Below are positions 18,650-34,172 of a DNA stretch of 42,736 bases, in pieces. A program made the position numbers and the translations under genes. The notes under the pieces were generated by a model that saw only the letters and a list, made by a program, of their open reading frames with translations, had not been told where the DNA came from and searched no databases. The stretch covers positions 1-42,736 of the forward strand of contig JAPLCU010000042.1 of assembly GCA_026392045.1 (NCBI GenBank). The letters are read 5' to 3'. The DNA comes from Armatimonadota bacterium. GTDB taxonomy: Bacteria > Armatimonadota > UBA5829. Positions within the stretch are counted from its first letter, which is position 1, and each line of letters opens with the position of its first letter.

Positions 18650-18698
18650 TAACAACTATCTTTTTACTCGTCCTTGTTCGATTTTGTGGAGAACACTT

Positions 18699-20756
18699 AT
18701 GAAAAATCTATATTCGAAGTGGTTAATCATTGCGTTAATTATCGCCCCAGGCATTCTCTACGCAACGCCGTGTGTTGCTCAGGATGAAAAGAAAAACGAA
18801 GTGTCGCTCGCTGACATGAGCATTTTTGAGCTCCTGAATGTCGAGGTAACAACCACCAATAAGCATGGTGAAAAGCTGCTCGATGCGGCTGCAGCCGTTT
18901 ATATCATTACAGGTGATGACCTTAGGAGAATGGGCGCGAGCAGCATTGCTGAAGCGCTCAGATTGGTTCCGGGTGTTCAGGTAGGACGTGTTACTTCAAG
19001 TAAGTGGTCTATCGGCGCCAGAGGGTTTTGTGATGTCTTCTCCAATAAACTCCTTGTATTGATGGACGGCCGCAGTGTGTATTCTCCGCTGTTTTCGGGT
19101 GTGCTCTGGGATGTTGCCGACACAATGCTAGAGGACATAGACCGGATAGAGGTCATCAGAGGTCCTGGAGCGGCGCTTTGGGGCGCTAATGCGGTGAATG
19201 GTGTTGTTAATATCATCACCAAAAGTGCGGTGCAGACCGATGGCAAGTATTTAGTGTATGGGTTTGGTGGCGACCTTACCAAGCTACAGGGATTGCGAAT
19301 CGGCGGCCCGGTAGGTAAGAACAGCCATTTACGGGTCTACGCAAAAGGCATGGCTTATGACAATCTACGCAATATCACAAACCAAGAATGCAGTGACTCA
19401 TGGGATCAGGACCGAAGCGGCTTCAGATTCGATTATAACCCGGATGAAAATGCTTCGCTAACGGTGATGGGGGATGCTTACAATGCGTCTGCTTGGAGCG
19501 ATTATTCTATCGGCGAGGTCACTACCCCACCGTTTAAGTCAAGTTTAATCAGCAATACTAATTCGTCCGGATCAAATATGCTTGTGAAGTGGAGTAAGGC
19601 AGGCGAACAAAACAACAAGTCAACACTCCAGTTTTATTACGATAATGCTAAGATACAGGACCCGGTTATGTTTGGCGAGGATAGGGAAACCTATGATTTT
19701 GACTATCAGAGGGAGACCCATCCAAGCGGCGGGACAGTGTTCATCTGGGGACTTGGTTACCGCCACTCAATAAGTGATACAACCAACGGCCAGATAGTGA
19801 CATTTAAATATAGACAGGTCACTGACAATCTATATAGTTTTTTCTTCCAGAATGATCAGAAAATCGTACCTGATAAGCTCAGGTTCATCTTAGGGGCTAA
19901 GCTTGAGCGCAACGATTATACCAAATATGAATTCCAGCCTAATGCTCGGTTAGCGTGGACTCCATCGTCTAATATGACTCTGTGGGGTGCGGTATCAAAA
20001 GCGGTCAGAACCCCATCGATAGCTGATTTCTATTCAATCTATAATATAATCGCTCCGCCGGATGAGTTTGGCAGGGCTAGAATATACACCATTTTCAGCA
20101 ATCCGAATATGCAGTCTGAAAAGCTCACCGCCTATGAGCTTGGGTGTCGTTTCAAGCCTTCGCAACGCGTATTGATAGATGTGGCTGCTTTTATGAACTT
20201 CTATGATGATCTGCGGTCATTGGAACCCGGCGCTCCATATATCGAGAATACATATAGCAGCGGTTGGCAGGAGCATCTCCATTATCCGCTTTATGTCAGC
20301 AATAACTTCAAAAGCAATTCCAGAGGCTTGGAGCTGGCAGCAGACTATGTTCCATCAAAACGCTGGCGGATAAGGTTTGGCGCAAGCATGATGAACTTAT
20401 GGCTGGACCGCTCAAATACCTTTGATGTCAAAGGATCTAACCTCGAGAAAACATATCCTAAGAAGCAGTATAGCATTGCTTCATTCTGGGACATTTCCAG
20501 CAATCTAACGCTCGACGCAATGTTATATGCAGTTGGCTCATCTGAGATGCCTTCTCTGGGTAAGGAGAATCTCCTTATCCCCGCTTACAACCGGCTGGAC
20601 TTTAGATTGGCTTATAAAGACAAAAGTGACACGGAGTGGGCTCTAGGAGCCAAGAATTTTGCCGGCAAGAGCCATATCGAGGGAGGTTCAATCTACGGTG
20701 AGCAGCAGTCCTATATTGGGCAGAGCTTCTATATGACTGCAAAAAAGACATTCTAG
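18699..20756 (+). CDS. TonB-dependent outer-membrane receptor
   Basis: An outer-membrane beta-barrel receptor with an N-terminal plug. From ATG 18699 (GGAG 7 nt upstream) it has 685 residues. A signal peptide of about 27 residues ends near TPCVAQ. A short segment resembling the start of related receptors (SLADMSIFELLNVEVTTTNKHGEKL) precedes the plug domain: VYIITGDDLRRMG, LRLVPGVQVGRV, NKLLVLMDGRSVYSPLFSG, IDRIEVIRGPGAALWGANAVNGVVNIITK. The barrel covers the rest and ends with an aromatic residue (KKTF), as barrel proteins do. Receptors of this subtype are often neighbours of YfiR proteins and sensor kinases, as here. The ligand is unknown. Confidence 0.93.
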   Translation: MKNLYSKWLIIALIIAPGILYATPCVAQDEKKNEVSLADMSIFELLNVEVTTTNKHGEKLLDAAAAVYIITGDDLRRMGASSIAEALRLVPGVQVGRVTSSKWSIGARGFCDVFSNKLLVLMDGRSVYSPLFSGVLWDVADTMLEDIDRIEVIRGPGAALWGANAVNGVVNIITKSAVQTDGKYLVYGFGGDLTKLQGLRIGGPVGKNSHLRVYAKGMAYDNLRNITNQECSDSWDQDRSGFRFDYNPDENASLTVMGDAYNASAWSDYSIGEVTTPPFKSSLISNTNSSGSNMLVKWSKAGEQNNKSTLQFYYDNAKIQDPVMFGEDRETYDFDYQRETHPSGGTVFIWGLGYRHSISDTTNGQIVTFKYRQVTDNLYSFFFQNDQKIVPDKLRFILGAKLERNDYTKYEFQPNARLAWTPSSNMTLWGAVSKAVRTPSIADFYSIYNIIAPPDEFGRARIYTIFSNPNMQSEKLTAYELGCRFKPSQRVLIDVAAFMNFYDDLRSLEPGAPYIENTYSSGWQEHLHYPLYVSNNFKSNSRGLELAADYVPSKRWRIRFGASMMNLWLDRSNTFDVKGSNLEKTYPKKQYSIASFWDISSNLTLDAMLYAVGSSEMPSLGKENLLIPAYNRLDFRLAYKDKSDTEWALGAKNFAGKSHIEGGSIYGEQQSYIGQSFYMTAKKTF

Positions 20757-20838
20757 CTGATCTACATAAGATAATTGGAGTCTAATGCTAATAAATTACG
20801 GCATAGCGCTCCAAGCAATACCTTATCAGGATTTATTG

Positions 20839-21387
20839 ATGACTTACAAGACGCATCTGATTGTATTATTAATATCGTTCTTGTGCATGATCAGCTTATC
20901 AAGCCAGGTCAATGCCAGCCCTACGGGAACTGACGCCGAAGTGAAAGCAGCTTTTGTGTGTCAGTTCCCCAATTTCATTGATTGGCCTGATTCCGCATTT
21001 ACGGATGCGAACTCCCCATTTGTGATCGGGGTGCTAGGTGACGATCCTTTTGGCTCAACACTGGACAACATGGTTAAAGGAAAGACGATAAATGGCCGAA
21101 AGATGATTGTCAAACGATCCAATAGCGTCAACAATCTGCAGAGTTGCCAAATTGTGTTTATCAGCTCCAGCGAAAAATACCGTTTATCCCGAATTATTGA
21201 TAGCTTCAAGGGATCAAATGCTCTGCTCGTAAGCGACATCAATGATTTTGCAAAAAAGGGCGGAATTATAGGCTTTATCTATAAAGACAACAAGATAGCC
21301 ATTCAGATCAACCAGGAAGCAGCAAAACGTTCTAAACTAAAGATCAGTTCAAAGCTCTTGAGACTTGCAGATATCGTTGGAAATTAG
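20839..21387 (+). CDS. YfiR family periplasmic protein
   Basis: A periplasmic protein of the YfiR (DUF4154) family. In Pseudomonas YfiR represses the diguanylate cyclase YfiN by binding its periplasmic domain. Landmarks are VKAAFVCQFPNFIDWPD after the signal peptide, VIGVLGDDPFG, the central CQIVFISSSE, ALLVSDINDFAKKGGIIGF and IAIQINQEAAKRSKLKISSKLL at the end. I place the start at ATG 20839 (MTYKTHLIVLLISFL), which gives a normal signal peptide and has AGGA 7 nt upstream. An alternative ATG at 20785 has GGAG only 4 nt upstream and would add 18 residues. The gene lies directly before a kinase with a CHASE8-like sensor, the kind of domain YfiR is known to control in YfiN. Confidence 0.88.
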   Translation: MTYKTHLIVLLISFLCMISLSSQVNASPTGTDAEVKAAFVCQFPNFIDWPDSAFTDANSPFVIGVLGDDPFGSTLDNMVKGKTINGRKMIVKRSNSVNNLQSCQIVFISSSEKYRLSRIIDSFKGSNALLVSDINDFAKKGGIIGFIYKDNKIAIQINQEAAKRSKLKISSKLLRLADIVGN

Positions 21388-21403
21388 AAAGGTATTACAT
21401 GTT

Positions 21404-21427
21404 CGGGCGTAATCTCTGATGCGCCCG
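21404..21427 (+). promoter_or_regulatory. Hairpin with conserved AATCTCTGAT loop, copy 2
   Basis: Stem CGGGCGT/GCGCCCG (six Watson-Crick pairs and one T-G) encloses AATCTCTGAT (21411-21420). The loop is identical to that at 18633-18642, while three of the seven stem positions are swapped on both sides so that pairing is kept. It lies 14 nt before the start of the hybrid kinase and overlaps its ribosome-binding region, a position suited to translational control. Confidence 0.55.
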
Positions 21428-21441
21428 TGATTAAGGTATGA

Positions 21442-24400
21442 ATGCTTATGCAATCATTCAACAATATCTCAATTAAGCACAAACTCACAATAATAACGAT
21501 GCTTACTACTATCGCCGCGTTGTTGCTGGCTTGCGCCGCATTCATTACTTTCGAACTTTATTCTTATCGCGAGGCCGCAACAAACGATCTAATTGCTGTA
21601 GCCGACATCGTAGGCAGCAACATAACCGCATCGATTACATTTAATGACCCCCAATCGGCTACAGAAACTCTTGTATCACTGCGCGACAAACCCCACATTG
21701 TGGCTGCTCGAATTTACACCAATGATGGCAAACTGTTCGCTCATTATTCCAGGAACCAAAGCAAAAGCATTCTATTGCGCAATCAAACGAAGTCTATAGG
21801 CAGCCAGTTCGTTGCGAACAATCTGGTCTTGTATCGTACGGTAATGCTTGATAAGAATCGTGTAGGTATGGTAGGCATACAGACTGACATGCAGGAGATG
21901 CATGATAGAATCACTCGATACGTTGGCATTGTGTTGGTCGTCGTTGTGATCACAACACTGCTTGCATTTTTGATCTCGTCAAGAGTTCAGCTAATTGTAT
22001 CTGAGCCTATATACCGCCTTGCTGATGCTGTTTTGCGAGTTAGTAAAGATAAAGATTTCTCCACTCGTGTTGAAAGCGATTCTAAGGACGAGCTTGGCAC
22101 ACTGATTGACGGCTTCAATGAAATGCTCGCACAGATCAAAGCGCGAGATGCCGCCCTCCATGAGGCCCGCGACCAGTTGGAAAAGCGAGTGGAAGAGCGT
22201 ACACAAGAGCTCAGAGCGCAAGTGACGGTCCGAAAACGAGCAGAAAACAGCGCCCGTAAAGAATATGCAAAACTATCTGCAATGATATCCGGAATGGAAG
22301 AAGGAGTTGTGTTTGCTGACGCTAAAAACCTGGTGGTTGAGGCAAACAACTACTTCTGCAGATTTATCGAACAGAAACGCAATGATGTGATTGGCACAAA
22401 TATCCTGGACCTCTTCAGCTCAGAAGATCACGAGGAAATTCTGGAAGTTACAACTCAATTCCGCACAAATCAGATCAAGCAACCATTCGTTTTGCAGAAA
22501 GCAATCGCCGACACCGAAGTCATATTGCGCTACCAGCCGATTTATCGCGACGAACACTATGACGGGATGTTGCTCAACATAATCAACGTGACGGAGCTTG
22601 TTTCGGCGCGCAAGCAGGCAGAAGCGGCAAGCAAGGCTAAGAGCGAGTTTCTGGCGAACATGAGCCATGAAATCCGCACCCCGATGAACGGCATCATTGG
22701 TATGACAGAACTTGCGCTTGATACTGACCTGAATCCGGAGCAACGCGACTATTTGAGATGTGTTATCTTGTCTGCAGATACGATGCTATCTATTATAAAC
22801 GATATCTTGGACTTCTCCAAAATTGAAGCCCGAAAACTAGATATAGACCCAGTAGAGTTCGAACTGCGCGACAGCATTCTTGAAACAGCCAGCACTCTTG
22901 CTCTAAGAGCTCATGAGAAGGGATTAGAACTTGCGTGTAGGATCAGCCCTGATGTGCCGGATTGTGTTATCGGCGATTCACAGCGGCTTAGGCAAGTATG
23001 GACGAACCTGATAGGCAACGCAATCAAGTTTACCAGTCAGGGTGAAGTATTTGTGAATGTCGAGCTTGAATCCCAATCTGATGATCAGTTTGTAATTCAC
23101 TGTAGCGTCAGGGACACTGGAATAGGCATTGAAAAAGAAAAACAAAAGCGGATTTTTGAAGCATTTGCCCAAGCTGATGGTTCCACAACGCGCAAATATG
23201 GCGGCACCGGATTAGGACTTGCCATTTCCGCGCAACTTGTGGAAATGATGGGCGGCCAAATATGGGTAGACAGTAAGCCGGAAGCAGGTAGCACTTTCCA
23301 CTTCACAATTCGTCTGGACGCACAAAAATCGCAGATCAAGAAAGCAAGTATGAAACAAAAAGCATTAGAAGGCATGTCTGTGCTAGTGGTTGATGATAAC
23401 TCCACTAACAGCCGAATTCTTGAAGAAATGCTCATCGGATGGAAGATGATCCCGACGTTGGCCGACAGCGGTCCGGCTGCTCTTGAGAAGTTGAGAGAAG
23501 CTGCCACTAATGGATCGCAGTTCGCGCTGATCCTGTCAGATGTTAACATGCCGGTGATGGATGGGTTCATGTTGGCATCAGAAATCAAGAAAGCCCCTGA
23601 GTTTGGCGGTTCGGCCATTATCATGCTGTCTTCGAGAGGCTATTGTGATGATGCCGTCAAGTGCAAAGAACTGGGCATTTCACTCTATTTGGCGAAACCC
23701 ATAAAGCAATCTGAATTATTGACTGGAATCCTTAAAACCCTTGGAGCGCTATCCCTAATTGACGAGCCTATGGAGATCGCAGATCAGATGAATAACAATA
23801 ATGAGTCTCTACAAATACTTCTCGCTGAGGATAACCCAGTCAATCAGCTGCTCGTAGTTCGCATATTGGAGAAGCGTGGTCACAATATGACCGTGGCTTC
23901 AAATGGCAGGCAGGCTATTGAGGCTCTGTCCGAGAATAAGTTTGACATTGTGCTTATGGACGTCCAAATGCCCGAGATGGATGGGATCGAGGCCACTACA
24001 TCTATTCGAGCCAGGGAAGAGCTCACCGGCGAGCATATCCCGATAATCGCCATGACTGCCCACGTAATGAAAGGCGACCGTGAACGATGTCTGGCAGCAG
24101 GTATGGACAGCTATATACCCAAACCCATTCAAGTCTCCGAGCTCCTAAGCGTGATACATTCACTGGTTGCAAGTCCTGATACCGCAGAGAGCGCCAAAGC
24201 GCAACAGCATCCAATCGACCTGAAATCCATAATTTCCAAACTGGATGGCGACATGGAGCTTGTTGCGGAACTGGTGGGCATATTCATCAGCGATTGCCCA
24301 AATATGATGATGGCGATCAGAGACGCTCTGGCCAAAACTGACGCAGAAGCTTTGACAAAGGCTGCTCACAACTTAAAGGGATCAATCGGCAACTTTGTAG

Positions 24401-24552
24401 CTAAAGATGCATTTGAAGCAGCGCGCAATCTTGAGATGATCAGCCGTGAAGGGGATCTCAGTTGTGCTCAGGAGCAATACGACATTCTTGTTAGAGAGAT
24501 TGACCGACTGTGCATTGAACTCTCGACGCTCACTCTGAAGGAAGCGGCATGA
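21442..24552 (+). CDS. Hybrid sensor histidine kinase (CHASE8-like, HAMP, PAS, HisKA, HATPase, REC, REC, Hpt)
   Basis: A 1036-residue membrane kinase with an internal phosphorelay. TM1 is at about 15-38 and TM2 at about 160-180. The periplasmic loop between them ([30 protein letters not shown]) matches the CHASE8 sensor seen in YfiN. A HAMP domain (about 181-235), a coiled coil, and a PAS domain (about 275-385) follow. HisKA has [10 protein letters not shown] with His409; the ATPase has its N-box (Asn526) and [10 protein letters not shown]. Two receivers carry Asp700 and Asp840, and the Hpt carries His976 in AAHNLKGS. The start at 21442 has AAGG 5 nt upstream. Its stop overlaps the next start (ATGA), so the GGDEF-EAL protein is coupled and is the likely final phosphate acceptor. 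Confidence 0.94.
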
Positions 24553-26279
24553 AGATACTAATCGCAGAGGACGACCAAGTCTCACGACGCCTGCTGCAGG
24601 CTGTGCTTGAAAAGTGGGAGTATGAAGTTGTCGTTACTAGTAACGGTATAGATGCTTGGGAAATTTTGCAAAGTCCTGACGCTCCGCAATTGGCAATCCT
24701 TGACTGGATGATGCCAGGAATGGATGGATTGCAAGTCTGCCGACAAGTGCGCAATAAGAAGGATGACCGTTACATCTATCTGCTGCTTCTCACCGCCAGG
24801 AGTGCCAAAGAAGACATCATTGAGGGTATGCACTCTGGTGCGGATGACTATATCGCGAAACCTTTCGATAAAAGTGAGTTACATGTGCGCCTGAGCGCCG
24901 GTAAACGAGTGCTTGATCTTCAATCCGAGCTACTAACCACCCGGGAATCCCTTAGGAATCAAGCGACACGAGACCCTCTCACAGGTCTGCCAAACCGCCT
25001 GTTGTTTGCTGATCGGTTAGCTCATAATATTGAAGTATTGAGGCGGCACAGCGCGAAATTGGCAGTAATGTTTCTTGATCTGGATAGATTCAAGCTTGTC
25101 AATGACACGTTTGGACACAGCATCGGAGACTCACTGCTCAAGGAAGTAACAAATCGGCTTACCAACACGCTGCGTGAAATTGATACAATCGCTAGAATGG
25201 GCGGCGATGAGTTCACTTTGATCTTGACGGACTTGATGCATGTCGAAGATGCCAAAAGGGTAGCTGAGAGGGTATTGAAGGCGTTTTCCAGGCCATTCAA
25301 AGTGAAATCGCACGAGATATTTATCACCGTGAGCATAGGGATAAGCATCTATCCTTCAGATGGCTGCGACGCGGAAACTCTGGTGAAAAATGCAGATGCC
25401 GCCATGTATCTCGCAAAAGAAAAAGGGCGTAGCACATATCACATGTATACCAAATCGCTGAGTGAAAAGGCCGAGGTTAGAATCAGTCTTGAGAATAGCT
25501 TGCGTCACGCAGTCGAGCGTGATGAACTTATACTTCACTACCAGCCTTGTCTTCGCATTGCTACCGGCGAAATATTAGGTTCTGAGGCGCTTTTGCGGTG
25601 GCAGCATCCCGAAATGGGCATGATTCCCCCCCTCGATTTTATACCTTTGGCGGAAGATACGGGATTGATCACTCCCATCGGCGAGTGGGTAATTCATACA
25701 GCATGCAAACAAAACAAAGCATGGCAGGACGCTGGGTTCCCACACATTGAGATCGCCGTGAATGTTTCAGCGCGACAATTCCGCCAGCAGGACTTCCAAA
25801 ACACCGTTAAACATGCGCTTGCAGAGTCTGGGTTGGATGCAAATTGGCTTGTCCTCGAACTTACAGAAAGCACGATCATGCATAACCCTGAAAGCGCTGC
25901 TAAATTGCTTCAGAACCTGAAAGCAATGGGAGTGCATGTGTCTATCGATGATTTCGGTACGGGATACTCATCATTGAGTTATCTCAAGCGATTCCCAATA
26001 GACACAATAAAAATCGACCAATCTTTCATTAGAGAGATTACCACAAATCCAGATGATGCTGCCATTGCTGGGGCAGTTGTTGCTATGGCTCACAGTATGA
26101 AGAGAAGGGTGGTTGCTGAGGGTGTGGAGACCCTTGAACAGCTCGAGTTCTTGGCGCAATTGAAATGTGATGATATGCAGGGCTATTTCGTGAGCAAGCC
26201 GGTGAATGCTGAGGAGTTTGAAATGCTCATACGCACACACAAACGATGGGATCGATTTAGTCAGCCCAAAGCGGCATAA
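24549..26279 (+). CDS. Response regulator with GGDEF and EAL domains (c-di-GMP turnover)
   Basis: 576 residues. The receiver domain (1-118) has acidic residues Asp8/Asp9, phosphoacceptor Asp52 ([13 protein letters not shown]) and Lys104. The diguanylate cyclase domain has an intact active site GGDEF (218-222) and an intact inhibitory I-site REID (209-212), five residues upstream as expected. The phosphodiesterase domain has EAL (346-348), ELTEST, the DDFGTGYSS metal-binding loop (467-475), KID and AEGVET. All key residues for both reactions are present, so it may both make and degrade c-di-GMP, switched by phosphorylation. It overlaps the hybrid kinase by 4 nt and ends the cluster; an insertion sequence begins about 16 bp after its stop. 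Confidence 0.95.
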
Positions 26280-26294
26280 TCGCTTGCAAATTAC

Positions 26295-26841
26295 CTATGG
26301 GCCGCAAAAACTACATCTGAGCACAAAAGCCCAATTTGTGCTATGCGCAAGATATGATAGATCATAGACGCATTATTCGTTATCTAAGTGAACGGTTGGC
26401 GGTTGACAGTTAATGGTTGACAGTTCCCAAACCGCTAACCGTCAACGGCCAACATAAGTCCTAAACGGTTGCCTACTCCTGCATTCGGTCAGCTATGGGT
26501 AGTAATCTCTCGATATTGGACTCATTGGGAATCACTGATCATAGTTGTGAAGCCTGATACCGTTGTTGGCTGGCATCACAAGGCATTTCGCTGGTATTGG
26601 ACTCGTAAATCAAGACCACCGGGGCGTCCATCAATATCCCGATCTACCATTGCGCTCATCAAGCGTATCCACCGAGAGAACCCACTATGGTCGCCGGAAA
26701 GGATTCACGATCAGATGCTTTCTCTTGGCATCATCGACATGCCGTCTCCGAACACATAGACGCTCTCAGCTCGCCCAACCTAATGCACAGTTGCCTTACA
26801 ATCACCGTGAATCGTCCGGATTGTATTATTGCGAGCCACAG
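26295..26841 (+). mobile_element. Internally deleted insertion sequence (IS481/IS3-like, DDE integrase type)
   Basis: The left tip (26296-26317, TATGGGCCGCAAAAACTAC) and the right tip (TGTGGCTCGCAATAATACA read inward from 26840) are imperfect inverted repeats of each other. Between them lie the ~210-bp left-end segment shared with 12453-12667, with GGTTGACAGT-type internal repeats at 26392-26425, and a fragment of a transposase gene. The element is only about 545 bp, too short for the full gene, so it is dead. The last 44 bp recur at 34129-34172. Confidence 0.75.
26463..26759 (+). pseudogene. Transposase fragment (integrase-core family)
   Basis: About 95 codons match the N-terminal helical region of DDE integrase-type transposases: AFGQLWVVISRYWTHWESLI, VKPDTVVGWHHKAFRWYW, RKSRPPGRPSISRSTIALI, HRENPLWSPERIHDQMLSLG. 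The normal N-terminal residues and the entire catalytic core are missing; a stop follows MPSPNT. The frame opens within the IS left-end segment, so translation is unlikely. Confidence 0.8.
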
Positions 26842-26859
26842 GTTTAGCATACCAATAAA

Positions 26860-26896
26860 AAAGCGGAGAATCCCCAAAGAGAGGTTTCTCCGCTTT
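26860..26896. terminator. Intrinsic-terminator-like hairpin
   Basis: AAAGCGGAGAA (26860-26870) pairs perfectly with TTCTCCGCTTT (26886-26896) over 11 bp with a 15-nt loop, and the upstream arm is preceded by an A-run. It would act best on minus-strand transcripts arriving from the 27361-33778 operon, where the A-run becomes a U-run. Confidence 0.6.
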
Positions 26897-27360
26897 ACAA
26901 TTGGTAGGGCGAGGAACCATCAGGGCAAACATTCTCTGAACTGGCGATGACAAATGTCATTTCTGCTTCACTGTTTTTGGAATTGGCACGCAAAGAGGCT
27001 CGTTCTCAAGGGTAGCTATGTAAAACAGCTGTTTTGAGCTTAGAATCCATCTTGAGTTTGTCTTGCGCCGCTAAATAGAGATAGGTTTGTTATAGCTATC
27101 AAATGGCTCCAAAAGCCAAGCAACCGCTACGACAAAACGAAACGAACATAGAAACGTCATTGTGATTGACCTCGTTTCCGGACCTCGAGTGACCTACCCC
27201 GTTCTCAGGATCAGGAAACATCGAGTCACTGCGGCGTTGCTGCTCTGCGGCCACCAGAGCCTCGCCAATCACCGTTCAGCACCCCGAGCTGGAGTTCTTG
27301 CGAGGGGCAGGTGAAAACCCAACCCACGTAGGCCTGCATTACGAATGCGTAAGGCTGGCG
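26897..27360. other. Non-coding stretch downstream of the PPR operon
   Basis: I see no gene in these 464 bases. There is no ribosome site with a continuing frame and no strong repeat. The AT-rich part (about 27000-27170) differs in composition from the GC-richer 27170-27360 part, so a junction may lie near 27170. Confidence 0.4.
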
Positions 27361-29301
27361 TCAGTGTCTCCCCTGCAGCCAATTGGTCAGGTCAGGACCC
27401 TCCATCCGCTTAGTCCGGTTGCCGTCACGGACATAGACCTGTTTGTCGAAATGAACCACTTGGCTGCTCTGCCGGATCGTTATCTGGCAAACCTCACCGT
27501 CTGGGAACAGGACGAAGTCTATTTCGACCTTTCCAAAGGGCACGGGAGTGAAACGCGAATCAATGAGGTCTCGCAGCTTGCGTTCCAAGCCATCTTTGTT
27601 CTGGCTTTTGCCGCACAGCTTGAAGTCCAGGGCCAGGCCTTTCATGAGCCCATCATCCGAAATGCCTATCAGCAACGTGCCGCCATCAGCATTAAGGAAT
27701 GCACATAATTCCTTGAGTGCGGAGTCCAGAACATCCTTGTTCTGTTTACCCAAGCGGATGTCCCACTCCAGTGTTTCCTTGAATTCCACCGTGTGGTTCT
27801 CCCCATTTGCGGCAAGAGCACTTACCTCGGCTCGGCGCTTCTGCTGCAAGCTTTCAAAACCGGTTTTGGTATCATTCACTTCGTTACCAACCTGAGGCAA
27901 CTCCTCGACTGGATCGTCTACTGATTCCTGACGACACTCAGGACAGTCGCCAAACCGACCAAAGAACTTGCGAATGTCCTGTGCTTCTATCACACGCCTT
28001 GAATGGGTCACCGCTAGCCACTCGAATAGATCCTCCAATTCACGTTCGTTATCCGGCCAGTCGTGCTCCAACAAGAACTGCTGTGCTTCATGAGAGAGTT
28101 CGCGATTGGAAGGTGAACCGAAGTTTCTCCCGATCATCGCCTGCGCAAGTGGTATGATATCAGCTCTGCGCTCTCGAAGCGGCGGAATGCGGATGGAGAA
28201 CTGAGCTATGCGCCCAAAGAAAGCCCTCAACCGGCCATCCAACACGCTGAGGTCGTCCGTAGAAGATACCCCAAAGACGATTCCACCTGAATAGACTAAG
28301 TTCGTGGTGCCACCCACTGTGTGGTAGATGCCATCTTTGATGAACTGATGCAGAAGCTCACTGATCTTCGACATTCGACTTGGGATGTGTTCGAAGTCAT
28401 CGATAAACACTGTCCCATCACACCCGTTCTTCCGTGTCCTCGCGAATACACCCTTTCGAACAGCTGGGTAACCCTTGACTGGGTTTCTCTCGTGCCCAAA
28501 CATAAATGATTCAATGTGATCGTCGGGTAATGTGCAGCAGTTTTCCTTGACCAATATGCCGCCTCTGCCAGACAACTCATGAAGACGTTCCGCGAGACGT
28601 TCTTTGCCGGTGCCCGTTTCTCCTATCAGCAAGACTACACGTTGTGCGGCATATTCGCCTACATGCATCAGCGCGCGTTGGATCTCCGTGCTGATCGCGG
28701 GAAGTTCATACCAGGTGTTTTTCACGAAACTGCGACGCCAACGCATGTCGCGATACCTATATATGGCAGTACCTATGAGATACGTCCAGCTTTCATCCTC
28801 GTGATGCTCAGTACCGGGTGTGCCAGCAGATACGCTTGCAGGCTTGGGAAGAAAAACGGCCCAGGGGACTGCTTGCGACCTTTGGTCCTCAACAACCTCT
28901 TCACGAACGACTGCCGCAATATCGTTCTGAGCAGTTGTAATAACCAGCATAACTTGCTCTGCCAGTTTGGGACGGCTTAGGAACGCCTTTCCCAGCGACC
29001 GGTAGAGCCTCAGTGCGCCTCCCTCTACGGAAAGCGGTCCACCGGTTTGCAGTGGCATAACCACATCGGAAATGATCAGGTCATAACCAACCGGTTCGCC
29101 AGAGTCTATTCTGTCAATGAACGAGCTCAGAGCTTCTGGGCTACCGCAGGTCGAGAACTCAACCTGTTCGTCACCCTTGAATCCAGGAGTTCGCCCGCCG
29201 AATCTAACTCGTTCTCCGAGCATCCGTACCAGATTGTTGAGATGATCCTGTTCGTCATCAACAATCAGAACCCGTAATGTTAAGAGATCACTCGCGCTCA
29301 A
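27361..29301 (-). CDS. Response regulator: receiver, AAA+ (sigma54-activator-like without GAFTGA), Schlafen/AlbA_2 domain
   Basis: 646 residues from a TTG start at 29301, with GGAGGG 7 nt upstream. It overlaps the kinase gene's stop by 14 nt. The receiver (1-155) has Asp15/Asp16, phosphoacceptor Asp79 (IISDVVMP) and Lys153. The AAA+ domain resembles NtrC-type activators: Walker A GETGTGKE (227-234), Walker B FIDDFEHIP (D in place of the usual E), PPLRERRADIIPLA and a C-terminal WPDNERELEDL. Where activators carry GAFTGA, this protein has NPVKGY (273-278), and no Fis-type helix-turn-helix follows. A CPEC motif and a linker lead to an AlbA_2 domain (about 502-640: HTVEFKET, ALKELCAFLNADGG, LLIGISDDG, VYVRDGNRTKRMEG). 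So it is unlikely to activate sigma54. The output probably involves nucleic acid, by analogy with AlbA_2/Schlafen proteins. Confidence 0.88.
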   Translation of the reverse strand: MSASDLLTLRVLIVDDEQDHLNNLVRMLGERVRFGGRTPGFKGDEQVEFSTCGSPEALSSFIDRIDSGEPVGYDLIISDVVMPLQTGGPLSVEGGALRLYRSLGKAFLSRPKLAEQVMLVITTAQNDIAAVVREEVVEDQRSQAVPWAVFLPKPASVSAGTPGTEHHEDESWTYLIGTAIYRYRDMRWRRSFVKNTWYELPAISTEIQRALMHVGEYAAQRVVLLIGETGTGKERLAERLHELSGRGGILVKENCCTLPDDHIESFMFGHERNPVKGYPAVRKGVFARTRKNGCDGTVFIDDFEHIPSRMSKISELLHQFIKDGIYHTVGGTTNLVYSGGIVFGVSSTDDLSVLDGRLRAFFGRIAQFSIRIPPLRERRADIIPLAQAMIGRNFGSPSNRELSHEAQQFLLEHDWPDNERELEDLFEWLAVTHSRRVIEAQDIRKFFGRFGDCPECRQESVDDPVEELPQVGNEVNDTKTGFESLQQKRRAEVSALAANGENHTVEFKETLEWDIRLGKQNKDVLDSALKELCAFLNADGGTLLIGISDDGLMKGLALDFKLCGKSQNKDGLERKLRDLIDSRFTPVPFGKVEIDFVLFPDGEVCQITIRQSSQVVHFDKQVYVRDGNRTKRMEGPDLTNWLQGRH

Positions 29302-32300
29302 CTGGCTGCCCTCCTAGTGTCTGTAGTGGCAGTTTCAGCTGCACGCTCCATACCTCTTGCGTCTCATCGGCAGTTACACTTACTGTGCCACCAGCGATAT
29401 CTTCGATTATATGCCTAATACCCACCAAGCCTATCGTGGAGCTATCAGCGGACGGTGCAGCCTGCGGATCGTATGGATTGGCTATTGAGACGACTCCCAT
29501 CTGCCTTTCGGTGTCCTCGGATACCGCAAATCTGATAGAGCAGCCAAAATGGGTTAGCTTCACCGCTTCCACTGCGTTGTGAATCAAGTTCAGTAATGCG
29601 CTCCGCAAGAGTGACGGATGAATCAAAGCAGAGACAGGCTTACGAGAACTAACAATAAACTTTACGCCGGTGGTGTAGCCGCTCCATTCGTCCACGGCCG
29701 CCTTTACAGCACATACCAGATCCACTTCGTCTGCTTCATCCTCGTATATCTCAAGATTGACTGTTTTCGCTATAGCCACGTAGACATCAAGAGCCGCACG
29801 CTGGATCTGTGCTATCTCACTATCTGCAAGCTCCATTCCGGTTGCCAAGGAGTTGGAGGCAGCCTGGATTTTCTTCTTGAGATCGTGAACCGCAATTCGC
29901 GGTGCCCGCACGGTTTCGTGCGAAGTCAGTAGCCAAGCAACCACTGCAGCGAACTGCCTATCAAGTCCGAGTGCAAGACCCCTTACCCACGCCTCCGGTT
30001 CAGTGGTAGCGAACAACGGCGCAATCCCTTCTCTGAAGAGCTCATGAGCGTTCCAATAGTAGGCTGGATCCGGAGTGCCTTCCGTAAGCCAACGCCGCCG
30101 CTCGCCTGCAACGTAATCAAATAGTGGTGACAGCCCAGCAAGGGAACTGGGAAGAGCCGAGCCTGTCGGCATACGCAATACAAGACTGACGCCAAACACG
30201 CCCGGCGGCTCGTTGTCGAGAAACGTGAACTGCGCCTGGCAACCATAGGGAAAAGTACGCGTGTTGAGTTCCCGGCGCGCAGTCGCTATTATCTCAGAAG
30301 GTCGGTGACTGGTATCGATCTGCTCGAAGCTAATGGTCAGCTCTATTCGTCCGCACTGAGAGCTGATTCTTACAGACCAATCTGCAGTATTCTGCCAAAG
30401 CGGTTCAAGCGGGCCTTTCTCCATGTTCAGCAACTGACGGAGTAGCGGACGCACAAGTAGCCAACAAGTCAGCGGCACACTCGTCTCGTCTGTTCCACAA
30501 TGATCAAGAATGACCTTCGTGTCATATTCTTCTGGGTCTTCACAAAGGGTATAGCGAGCCTCATTCGCAAGCTTGCTGATCAGTAGATGCAGATCGCATG
30601 AGTCACCGAAGCTATAGTAAGCTGGCAGCACAGACACCGGAAGCTCAGCACGGAGAAATGTGTTTATGTCTGACAGGAGTTGGTGGTCGCGCAAGGCTGC
30701 CCGAGCCTCGTCATAGTTACCCAGAATGGGCTCGAAGATAGCGAGCGCTTCATCAGCATACGAGCGTATCAACGCCTTCAGTATAGCTGCGCCCTCGCCG
30801 ACGAGCAACTGGAACAAGATCTCCTGACCAATCTGGGCGTCTTGGGCAAGTGCTACCCGAACAGTCCTCTGCGCCAGCGCTGCAAAATCGTCAGTTCCCG
30901 ATTGCCCGTGGAAGTAGTTGGTTGCGAGCAGACCCGATAGGATTCGTGCAACGGACTGCGCCAAGGAAATACCAATCAGCGGTTGCGAAAGCTTTTCGAA
31001 AACTGCATCCACAACTTCATTTGGGAATGATCTAGCCTCACCGAGCACTCGCGAAGTGAATCGAAGCAACTCCACGTCGTCACTGCTCCGCACTATGGCA
31101 CATATGGCATCACACGAGCGATCGGCATCGCGGCGAAAACTGCTTCGCAGAGCTTTGTAAGTATATCCTTCGGGTTGTGTCAGAGATGCCGGCATGTCTG
31201 AGTATGCTTCCCAGGCCTCCTCCAATCGACCTGCACGCCCCAAGGTTTTCACCAGAGCCGTATACGTGTACTCGTCGGCAGGAATACCGTCTTGTTTCAT
31301 TGTCGCGAATACACGAAGGGCACCATCAGGTTCCTCAGCAATGCCGTATGCCCTAATGAGGGCAGAGCATGAGTAGTTGTCGGCGCCGATTCCATTCTCC
31401 AGCATCAAGTGAAATGCTTCTCTGGCGCGGTCCGCCAGACCAGCATCCCCGAACGCGTTGATCAAGGCCGAGAACGCGTAAGCATCAACTTCTGCACCGC
31501 ATTGCCTCGCGAACTCAAAGACATTCCAAGCCTCGTTCGGGTGTCCTGTATCACCGAAAGCTCTTATAAGTAACATGCAATGGTACGGCTTGGGAGTAGT
31601 GTTCGTGTCTCTCGCACATCGCAAGAACTGCCAAGCTAACTCGACCTGTCCCGATCTCCCAAGAGCAGCAACAAGATCCGCGCATTGCCATATACGCCCT
31701 CCAGAGCTTCCTGCAGCCATCCTGAAAATCCGCAAAGCGTGCTCCGGAGTGTCTGACTCTATGAATGCTATCGCATTACTTACAATCTCTTCCATATGTT
31801 TCCCGCCAATCCTGGCAATCATCTGGGAGAGATGTAGCTCGCCTTCGTCGTAGTTCTCGCTAATCAGCAGAGCAAGGGTTTCGACAGAGAGACCTATCTG
31901 TCGTTGCAACATCCACCGAAGGGTGTCTGTTACCTTCGCCGTCTCGTGCAGGATCAGCAGCATCTGGACCAAACGGTTAAGCGTTGCCTGCGCTAGACTG
32001 ACGTTACGTTGGCGTGCAACGCTGAATATCTGCCATGCATACTCTGATTCACCGTATTGGATGAAAATCCTGGCCAGGTGGTTCATTGTTATGAAGTGTA
32101 TCTCACTATCCATCCGGAGCATCTCTGACGTGATCTGCCAAGCAGTGTCCACGTAACCGTTCTCAAGAAACCCGATGGCAAAGCCGGCGAGTGACTCAAG
32201 GCTGAGAGGCGAGCTCTGCTGCATCGCCCTGATCACCTCTCGGGATTCTTTCTCGCCTCTTGCAGCAACAAATGCCCTGAAAACCCCTTGATACTTCCCT

Positions 32301-33778
32301 GGATGCCTTAGATCACGACTTGCGTCGACACTAGCGAACGAATCCCATACGACCTCCGGAATCCCGTGATCAGCAAATGAGAGTGTGAGAGCGTCGAATG
32401 TGGCGAGATCAGCGCCAATGCCATCCTCCTGCATCATATGGAAAACAGCGAGAGCTTGGCTGTGTCGTCGTTCTGCGGCGAGTGCCGCCAATAACAAGTT
32501 GTACGTATCCTTAGTGGGCTTGAGGTCACACTCGCGCATCATTTCGAGCACGTGCCATGCCCTTTCCCAAAGACCCGATCGGCCAAACGCTGCAATCAAT
32601 GAGTTTGAAACCTGGCAGTTTAACTCAAACTTGGCGTCACGCATCGTCTGGACGACATCCCACGCCCGTTCCGGTTGGCCAACTCGTCCATATCCGTCGA
32701 CCAAGGCGGCAAATGCTGTCGCGCTGGGTTTTAGTCCACTTCGACGCATGGCCTGAAAAGCGTCCCAAGCCTCATTCGCGAGACCGCCACGGCCAAGTGA
32801 GGTGATCATAGTCTCGAATACTTCCGCGTCTGGTTGGATTCCCTCAGCAATCATCAAATTGAACGTCTCCCAGATCCGATGAGGTTTTCCGTTATGAGCG
32901 TGGGCGTCCAGGAGAGAATGGTAGATGGTGGCGGAAGGATGAAGTCCTTGGTCTATCATCTGCCTGAGCACTTCCAAAGCTCGCCCCGTATGCTTGACAC
33001 GCATGAATTGCTTGATCAGGACTTCTCCGACTAGCAGCCTAGTAGGAAGTGGAAAGCCACTCACAATCTTGAGGATTTCCGTTGTATGAGCAGCAACTAC
33101 TGAGCTGCCGAGAACGTTGAAGAGCTGCGTGATCGTGGTTCTGGTGGGTTCTGTCCCCCAGCCGATCACTCGAGAGAACGCATCCCACGCTCTGCTGGGT
33201 GTCTTGGCCGTGCCGGACACCGCTATGAGCGCATCTAGTGCGTGGGCGTTCGGACGCAGGCTCTTCCTGAGCATCTGTTCGAAGAATTCCCAGGCTAGAT
33301 CTGGCTGTCTCGCAATTCCACATGCAGCAATCAGAGGGTTGAACGTCTCTGCATCTGGTTTCAACGAATACCGGCTCATCAGTTCAAGCACGTCACGAGC
33401 TGTCTCGAGAAAGCCGGCGTATCCGAAGGCGCCTACAAGGTGGTTGAAGTCCTCTGTACCTGGCGAGGCAGGATCTCGGGAAATCGACTTCAGTAGTCCA
33501 GCGATGTCAGACGCTGGCTGAAAATCAGCTAGCCTTCGCCCGAGGACAGCCAACAACATCGGCGTAGGACATCCATCTGCGGCAGCAAAATCACGCAGTG
33601 CTCGACAGACTTCAGAGGGAGTGGATCGGCAATACTTGAGCACGTAGGACAGCAAAGACGCATCCGAAGGACACTGCACAAAAGCTGTATCGAGCAGAGC
33701 CTGGGCGTCTTCCAGCTTGCCGGCACGCCGGAGTGCCGTTGCTTGACCAATGATGATGGGTTGTTCCTTTTCGTCCAC
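29288..33778 (-). CDS. Pentatricopeptide-repeat (PPR) protein with C-terminal histidine-kinase-like module
   Basis: 1496 residues from a GTG at 33778 (AGAGG 5 nt upstream). No signal peptide or membrane segment is visible, so it is cytoplasmic. Residues 8-40 look like one TPR. About eleven 35-residue repeats cover 108-490, with the conserved Pro (or its replacement) at 141, 176, 211, 245, 281, 316, 351, 386, 421, 456. Five more cover 696-870 (729, 764, 799, 834, 869), and degenerate helices lie between. The repeats fit PPR better than TPR: F/Y-N-x-L-I, G-R-x-G-x-x-x-x-A-W, MxxxGxxPD. Residues 880-1240 are unassigned. The end is kinase-like: HDLKKKI (His1298), N-box LIHNAVEAV (Asn1401) and STIGLVGIRHII...GG; the G1 box is atypical (IANPYDP). 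Its partner is the receiver protein encoded next. PPR proteins bind RNA in eukaryotes; here that is inference. Confidence 0.88.
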   Translation of the reverse strand: MDEKEQPIIIGQATALRRAGKLEDAQALLDTAFVQCPSDASLLSYVLKYCRSTPSEVCRALRDFAAADGCPTPMLLAVLGRRLADFQPASDIAGLLKSISRDPASPGTEDFNHLVGAFGYAGFLETARDVLELMSRYSLKPDAETFNPLIAACGIARQPDLAWEFFEQMLRKSLRPNAHALDALIAVSGTAKTPSRAWDAFSRVIGWGTEPTRTTITQLFNVLGSSVVAAHTTEILKIVSGFPLPTRLLVGEVLIKQFMRVKHTGRALEVLRQMIDQGLHPSATIYHSLLDAHAHNGKPHRIWETFNLMIAEGIQPDAEVFETMITSLGRGGLANEAWDAFQAMRRSGLKPSATAFAALVDGYGRVGQPERAWDVVQTMRDAKFELNCQVSNSLIAAFGRSGLWERAWHVLEMMRECDLKPTKDTYNLLLAALAAERRHSQALAVFHMMQEDGIGADLATFDALTLSFADHGIPEVVWDSFASVDASRDLRHPGKYQGVFRAFVAARGEKESREVIRAMQQSSPLSLESLAGFAIGFLENGYVDTAWQITSEMLRMDSEIHFITMNHLARIFIQYGESEYAWQIFSVARQRNVSLAQATLNRLVQMLLILHETAKVTDTLRWMLQRQIGLSVETLALLISENYDEGELHLSQMIARIGGKHMEEIVSNAIAFIESDTPEHALRIFRMAAGSSGGRIWQCADLVAALGRSGQVELAWQFLRCARDTNTTPKPYHCMLLIRAFGDTGHPNEAWNVFEFARQCGAEVDAYAFSALINAFGDAGLADRAREAFHLMLENGIGADNYSCSALIRAYGIAEEPDGALRVFATMKQDGIPADEYTYTALVKTLGRAGRLEEAWEAYSDMPASLTQPEGYTYKALRSSFRRDADRSCDAICAIVRSSDDVELLRFTSRVLGEARSFPNEVVDAVFEKLSQPLIGISLAQSVARILSGLLATNYFHGQSGTDDFAALAQRTVRVALAQDAQIGQEILFQLLVGEGAAILKALIRSYADEALAIFEPILGNYDEARAALRDHQLLSDINTFLRAELPVSVLPAYYSFGDSCDLHLLISKLANEARYTLCEDPEEYDTKVILDHCGTDETSVPLTCWLLVRPLLRQLLNMEKGPLEPLWQNTADWSVRISSQCGRIELTISFEQIDTSHRPSEIIATARRELNTRTFPYGCQAQFTFLDNEPPGVFGVSLVLRMPTGSALPSSLAGLSPLFDYVAGERRRWLTEGTPDPAYYWNAHELFREGIAPLFATTEPEAWVRGLALGLDRQFAAVVAWLLTSHETVRAPRIAVHDLKKKIQAASNSLATGMELADSEIAQIQRAALDVYVAIAKTVNLEIYEDEADEVDLVCAVKAAVDEWSGYTTGVKFIVSSRKPVSALIHPSLLRSALLNLIHNAVEAVKLTHFGCSIRFAVSEDTERQMGVVSIANPYDPQAAPSADSSTIGLVGIRHIIEDIAGGTVSVTADETQEVWSVQLKLPLQTLGGQPVERE

Positions 33779-33986: not shown

Positions 33987-34129
33987 TGTCAATCGGCGCC
34001 CAGGATTGACCCGCCATCGGCATCCAATACTGACCCATCGTTCTACGTTCAGCCCGCGCTTGGCAATGTGGGTCATGGTTCGGTGCCGATCACCATTTCA
34101 AATGGGTCATCGCTGCATGCCGATCCACA
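33987..34129. mobile_element. Minimal IS21-family-like element: two ends with almost no interior
   Basis: Four 21-bp repeats of the form ATCGGC-N9-TGACCC lie at 33992-34012 and 34016-34036 (plus) and at 34070-34090 and 34104-34124 (minus). Tips begin TGT at 33987 and, inverted, at 34129. Duplicated internal repeats near each terminus are the hallmark of IS21-family ends. Only 33 bp separate the inner repeats, so both transposition genes are gone. The 26-bp terminal inverted repeats match at 18 positions. Confidence 0.7.
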
Positions 34130-34172
34130 CAATCACCGTTAATCGTTCGGATTGTATTATTGCGAGCCACAG
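34129..34172 (+). mobile_element. Solo right end of the 26295-type insertion sequence
   Basis: These 44 bp match 26798-26841 with two differences and have the same orientation. They start where the IS21-like element ends. With the copy at 26798-26841 they form direct repeats on both sides of the PPR-kinase/response-regulator operon. Confidence 0.75.

Follow-up and report, generated by a model that had tools for sequence, protein, structure and literature searches.

Does a pair of adjoining genes in an Armatimonadota bacterium encode a two-component system with RNA as its input and a nuclease as its output? The pair lies in a 42,736-nt stretch of DNA (contig JAPLCU010000042.1 of assembly GCA_026392045.1; hereafter the window, to whose full length all coordinates refer), where gene A and gene B are both encoded on the minus strand. 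A first-pass annotation, made from the letters alone, had read gene A as a kinase carrying pentatricopeptide repeats (PPRs) and gene B as a regulator with a receiver, an AAA+ and an AlbA_2 domain. Outside the organelles of plants and animals, PPR repeats, a module that reads RNA, are almost never met. Judged from sequence, the architecture of the pair (a PPR-kinase; a receiver, AAA+ and AlbA_2 protein) and the overlap of the two genes are established, and we tentatively interpret them as a two-component sensor-effector pair, RNA-sensing and with nuclease output, a reading in which our confidence falls short of even.

The two genes were found as annotated: the open reading frames (ORFs) overlap by 14 nt, and gene B's TTG start has a perfect AGGAGG 8 nt ahead of it, within gene A, so that the genes are arranged for coupled translation. 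No obvious third gene belongs to this operon.

On profile and structure-database evidence, the N-terminal two thirds of gene A is largely a genuine P-class PPR array. Fourteen clear repeats, each exactly 35 aa long and gapless within runs, occupy residues 108-212, 248-457 and 696-870, and residues 213-247 and 458-695 were assigned by eye to degenerate repeats. The clear repeats scored 56-79, compared with 0.8 for the best of 200 shuffles; since the scoring model was built from gene A's own repeats, the independent evidence for PPR comes from Pfam (PPR_2, E = 1.8e-72, 10 stretches), NCBIfam (TIGR00756, E = 8e-81, 11 stretches) and the PDB. When the array was compared by sequence search with solved structures, 43 PDB chains matched at E <= 0.001, all of them PPR or PPR-type alpha-solenoid, led by the designer PPR-U10 (7.7e-79), with maize PPR10 at 2.3e-55 and RNA-bound designer PPRs among the best matches. 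This settles PPR rather than tetratricopeptide (TPR) or SEL1 repeats, the identity that the first-pass annotation had set against its own proposal: the TPR protein LapB matched at only 3.7e-5 and the TPR-like ARM_TT21 at 0.0059, far more weakly than PPR.

Beyond the array and a linker (residues 871-1280) with no Pfam match, gene A ends in what profile comparison identifies as a divergent kinase core. No kinase family exceeded its Pfam cut-off in gene A; weak matches to HATPase_c_5 (PF14501, 0.021), AtoS (0.017) and HK853-type kinase structures (0.0023) all fall on one stretch. In hhalign comparisons with kinase domains of the window and of related genomes (12 in all), the HATPase reached 84% (7e-6), as against 0.1-0.6% for five shuffles, and its N-box NLIHNA is kept at residues 1397-1402 (Asn1401). 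His1298 lies within AVHDLKKKI; a low-confidence single-sequence model (mean predicted local distance difference test score (pLDDT) 45, locally up to 72) predicts two long helices here and places the residue in the first. Of the proposed DHp-like His1298 and HATPase, the HATPase is supported, rising above shuffles with its N-box intact, but it is divergent and its G1 box is altered; gene A has no HisKA profile match. A second, hidden HATPase at residues 1056-1215, possible by eye, was not supported (0.1% in hhalign).

The receiver of gene B, with Asp79, is likewise divergent and likewise supported. Its Pfam match (0.0061) is under the curated cut-off, and hhalign gave 87.5% (3.6e-6) over residues 10-87, including Asp79, with shuffles at most 1.8%. 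The AAA+ domain that follows matches Sigma54_activat (1.1e-18, with lid) and the PADLOC model RtcR_PspF2 (1.7e-36), and carries a Walker A motif GETGTGKE and a Walker B motif ending in DD. Its GAFTGA loop, the element that contacts sigma-54, is, however, replaced by NPVKGYPA, whereas the loop reads GAFT or GSFT in all ten NtrC-type proteins from related genomes in which it was readable, and gene B has no helix-turn-helix (HTH), ending in AlbA_2 instead. Because both the loop and the HTH are missing, gene B is not an ordinary sigma-54 activator; the regulator of the first-pass annotation retains its three domains but not the character of an ordinary enhancer-binding protein.

The C-terminal domain is of Schlafen type, as had been claimed (SLFN_AlbA_2, 3.2e-20). 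It keeps the near-invariant Glu501, Glu506, Lys508, Asn537, glycines, Asp549, Asp570 and Arg625, the two core glutamates E501 and E506 aligning in ExxxxEFK, and 19 of 21 bacterial relatives share Asp549. Across 291 genomes of the phylum, its best relatives, up to 40% identical, sit at the C-terminus of restriction-modification enzymes that are type IIG/PglX-like. A profile of the AlbA_2 relatives matches human Schlafen nucleases at E about 1e-11 (6.5e-12); its matches are SLFN11, SLFN14, SLFN5, SLFN12 and rat SLFN13, and more weakly SAMD9. Rat SLFN13 requires its triad E205/E210/D248 to act as an RNase (PMC5862951), and the antiviral activity of SAMD9L depends on its Schlafen-like site (PMC11221667); SLFN5 matches too, yet has no nuclease activity (PMC8789055), so that a profile match alone does not prove catalysis. 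Within the phylum, AlbA_2 was also seen in 35 other genomes (E <= 1e-6; L164-L183), in type IIG/PglX-like tails and in shorter proteins without other Pfam domains.

These features bear on the main competing explanation, which we consider unlikely: that the pair is a two-component transcription regulator of NtrC layout, in which gene A senses RNA or protein, AlbA_2 replaces the HTH as DNA-binding domain, and gene B regulates neighbouring or distant genes. Annotations often treat AlbA_2 as binding DNA (PMC6299218), and here it occupies the exact place that a FIS-type HTH holds in NtrC-family proteins, whose AAA domain and lid gene B also matches; yet the loop present in the ten compared NtrC-type proteins is missing, there is no HTH, and the AlbA_2 domain groups with restriction-modification tails and Schlafen nucleases, its glutamates kept.

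Under the preferred reading of an RNA-sensing pair with nuclease output, the PPR array would bind a single-stranded RNA, perhaps a fragment of RNA or a transcript that stems from a phage or from stress. Binding would compact the superhelix, as RNA does that of maize PPR10 (PMC13041630), and alter kinase activity at His1298. Phosphate would then move from His1298 to Asp79, the AAA+ ring would assemble or open, and the AlbA_2 nuclease thereby released would cut RNA, most likely tRNA or rRNA, and stop translation. The role of such a system would most likely be defence or stress-induced shutdown.

How far the array could read RNA was judged from its code residues, which in PPR proteins are position 5 and the last position of each repeat (PMC13041630, PMC11094755). 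Counting as canonical a set of pairs that we chose on the basis of these two reviews, positions 5 and 35 are canonical in 6 of the 16 scored repeats. Chance, given the composition, would yield 0.3, and the control, a plant PPR protein of restorer type, has 11 of 15; with only these six in gene A, RNA reading is plausible and the code incomplete. The count also leaves room for a second explanation, which strikes us as distinctly improbable: that the pair works as proposed, with the array serving as a TPR-like protein binder or scaffold and a phage or host protein as trigger. Repeat arrays on STAND proteins (signal transduction ATPases with numerous domains) commonly sense proteins, and position 5 is Glu, Asp, His, Ala or Met in eight repeats of gene A; the closest solved arrays, however, are RNA-binding PPRs, and canonical code residues are far over chance. 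Net charge is negative, which we dismissed as an argument against RNA binding because the plant PPR control is more negative still.

A third possibility is that the pair arose by chance fusion and is decayed or inactive, left over between repeat fragments, with a degenerate kinase and receiver that form no working relay. This view draws on the divergence of HATPase and receiver, on changes seen by eye in the AAA sensor and Walker B, on the lack of relatives and on the flanking repeat fragments, but is very improbable: both frames are long and intact (1496 and 646 aa), the 35-aa repeats are regular, gene B has a perfect ribosome-binding site, the near-invariant AlbA_2 residues are retained and codon use is window-like.

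Several observations nonetheless weigh against an RNA-sensing relay with nuclease output. The G1-box Asp of the HATPase, aligned by eye, is replaced by Asn (VVSIANPYDP), which makes the kinase activity of gene A uncertain; the single-sequence models are poor (pLDDT 45 and 34); and 10 of the 16 scored repeats carry non-canonical code residues. In the AlbA_2 domain the third Schlafen carboxylate (D248 of rat SLFN13) aligns with Ser548, beside Asp549. There are no recognisable defence genes among the neighbouring window genes scanned, and none of the collections and genome samples searched yielded a homologous gene pair.

Those searches returned no relatives of gene A in phages, viral contigs or plasmids, apart from one plant contaminant. 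Exact 8-mers gave none in viral contigs or in genome contigs of about 85,000 species. An alignment query padded with artificial gene A variants, which were made only to steer pattern choice, gave none. A two-repeat DNA pattern that gene A matches twice gave 19 genome-contig matches, all in unrelated frames, and a protein search of the 291 phylum genomes with gene A gave only weak repeat-type matches. By our estimate, relatives whose identity is much under about 60-70% would escape the contig scans; as these detect only fairly close relatives, the pair is an orphan at this sensitivity, its uniqueness unproven. The contaminant, Rahnella pMEM40-2 (CP036489.1, L022 9384-11594), was rejected as a relative: its plant restorer-like PPR gene stands beside repE, sopA and catA1, and the record is probably a plant bacterial artificial chromosome clone filed as a bacterial plasmid.

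PPR repeats have been described as absent from bacteria (PMC4029402). Of 1012 genomes that we sampled across three phyla, two had PPR_2 over its cut-off, which makes the repeats rare in bacteria. In one of the two (L186 3492-7768, G1300:C86) a CHAT-protease-like gene stands directly ahead of a gene on the same strand for a 914-aa NB-ARC protein, whose PPR array, unrelated to that of gene A, has repeats about 32 aa long; in the other (L187 1-942 minus, G478:C328), PPR repeats cut by the contig end lie behind an N-terminal domain that resembles a class III nucleotide cyclase by eye and has no Pfam match. Predicted immune-type receptors combine CHAT and NB-ARC with a repeat array in this way. Since L186 shares that layout, the NB-ARC-PPR protein adjoining a CHAT protease gene, it seems that bacteria employ PPR arrays as sensor arrays in more than one case.

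Set beside known systems, gene A shares tandem 35-aa repeats and some canonical code residues with P-class PPR proteins such as maize PPR10 and designer dPPR, but is bacterial, is fused to a kinase core and has many non-canonical code pairs. Like the AlbA_2 nucleases of the Schlafen/SAMD9L group (SLFN11-14), gene B has an AlbA_2 domain with both core glutamates and the Lys, but only one per chain, behind a receiver and an AAA+ domain, and with the third carboxylate shifted by one position. The type IIG/PglX-like enzymes, which hold the closest sequences found, also carry AlbA_2 at the C-terminus, there on a methylase and here on a receiver-AAA module. With the RtcR/NtrC family gene B has in common the AAA+ domain and lid, but not CARF, GAFTGA or HTH. 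BREX loci contain Schlafen RNases with a minimal histidine kinase and a winged HTH as fusion partners (PMC12839542); these too combine a Schlafen domain with a histidine-kinase-type module, whereas here two proteins stand in a kinase-regulator arrangement with a PPR sensor, and no BREX genes were seen nearby. In the NB-ARC-PPR/CHAT locus, too, a signalling protein carries the PPR array and has an effector gene next to it, but with an NTPase switch and a protease in place of kinase and Schlafen domain, and with the shorter repeats.

The first-pass annotation had placed the operon between insertion sequence (IS) remnants and taken this to fit mobility (Table 1). The left flank does hold a transposase-like HTH fragment, along with repeat DNA that recurs in other parts of the genome; the right flank has only a copy of the 44-bp repeat. 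A third copy of this repeat lies on contig C146 (G000:C146:351-393), within a longer repeat family of the same genome, and the sharing of such repeats with other contigs argues that the contig belongs to this genome. Mobility is weakly supported by the repeat fragments on both sides and by AlbA_2, which was not found in the window's own class beyond gene B at E <= 1e-6. Foreign codon use was ruled out, codon use and GC of the operon being like those of the rest of the window, and no known RNA families were found near the locus. Neighbouring genes are for transport, radical SAM and signalling functions; adjoining the operon, positions 18684-26279 hold consecutive genes for a TonB receptor, a YfiR-like protein, a hybrid kinase and a REC-GGDEF-EAL protein, likely a cyclic-di-GMP signalling cluster.

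Table 1 Features of the gene A/gene B locus, in window coordinates.
Feature	Position	Strand	Details or basis
Gene A: PPR-array sensor kinase, 1496 aa, GTG start	29288..33778	minus	ORF and profile matches
PPR block 1, residues 108-492	32303..33457	minus	nine clear 35-aa repeats, degenerate ones at 213-247 and 458-492
Degenerate PPR-like repeats, residues 493-695	31694..32302	minus	by eye, 35-aa spacing, under scoring threshold
PPR block 2, residues 696-870	31169..31693	minus	five clear repeats
Linker, residues 871-1280	29939..31168	minus	helical then alpha/beta in low-confidence model
DHp-like helix pair, residues 1288-1339	29762..29917	minus	His1298 codon 29885-29887
Divergent HATPase, residues 1355-1490	29309..29716	minus	weak profile/PDB matches and hhalign
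Gene B: REC-AAA-AlbA_2 protein, 646 aa, TTG start	27361..29301	minus	ORF and profile matches
Divergent receiver, residues 8-155	28837..29280	minus	Asp79 codon 29065-29067; LPKP Lys153 by eye
AAA+ domain with lid, residues 204-445	27967..28692	minus	profile match
AlbA_2 (Schlafen-type), residues 501-634	27400..27801	minus	profile and alignment
Shine-Dalgarno AGGAGG of gene B	29310..29315	minus	perfect; within gene A 3' end, 8 nt upstream of TTG start
Likely terminator 3' of gene B	26850..26906	minus	inverted repeat then T run
Repeat DNA and transposase-like HTH fragment	26469..26841	plus	holds left 44-bp direct repeat, 26798-26841
Right 44-bp direct repeat	34129..34172	plus	95% identical to left

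Taken together, the anatomy of the pair is real and unusual, and RNA sensing is a good hypothesis for its mechanism; what may be new is a two-component system with both a new input and a new output. PPR arrays are the best-understood modular readers of single-stranded RNA, yet are considered eukaryotic and organellar. We regard it as doubtful that the pair is the first two-component system in which an RNA input read by sequence releases an AAA+-gated Schlafen RNase, and that, with the NB-ARC-PPR/CHAT locus, it is part of a broader role, so far undescribed, of PPR arrays as receptors for RNA in the immunity of bacteria. If true, bacteria would have evolved a protein-only programmable RNA receptor and tied it to a nuclease of the Schlafen class, which is known from immunity to viruses, and the locus makes it testable whether a histidine kinase can be switched by RNA sequence and whether PPR arrays serve as bacterial sensors.
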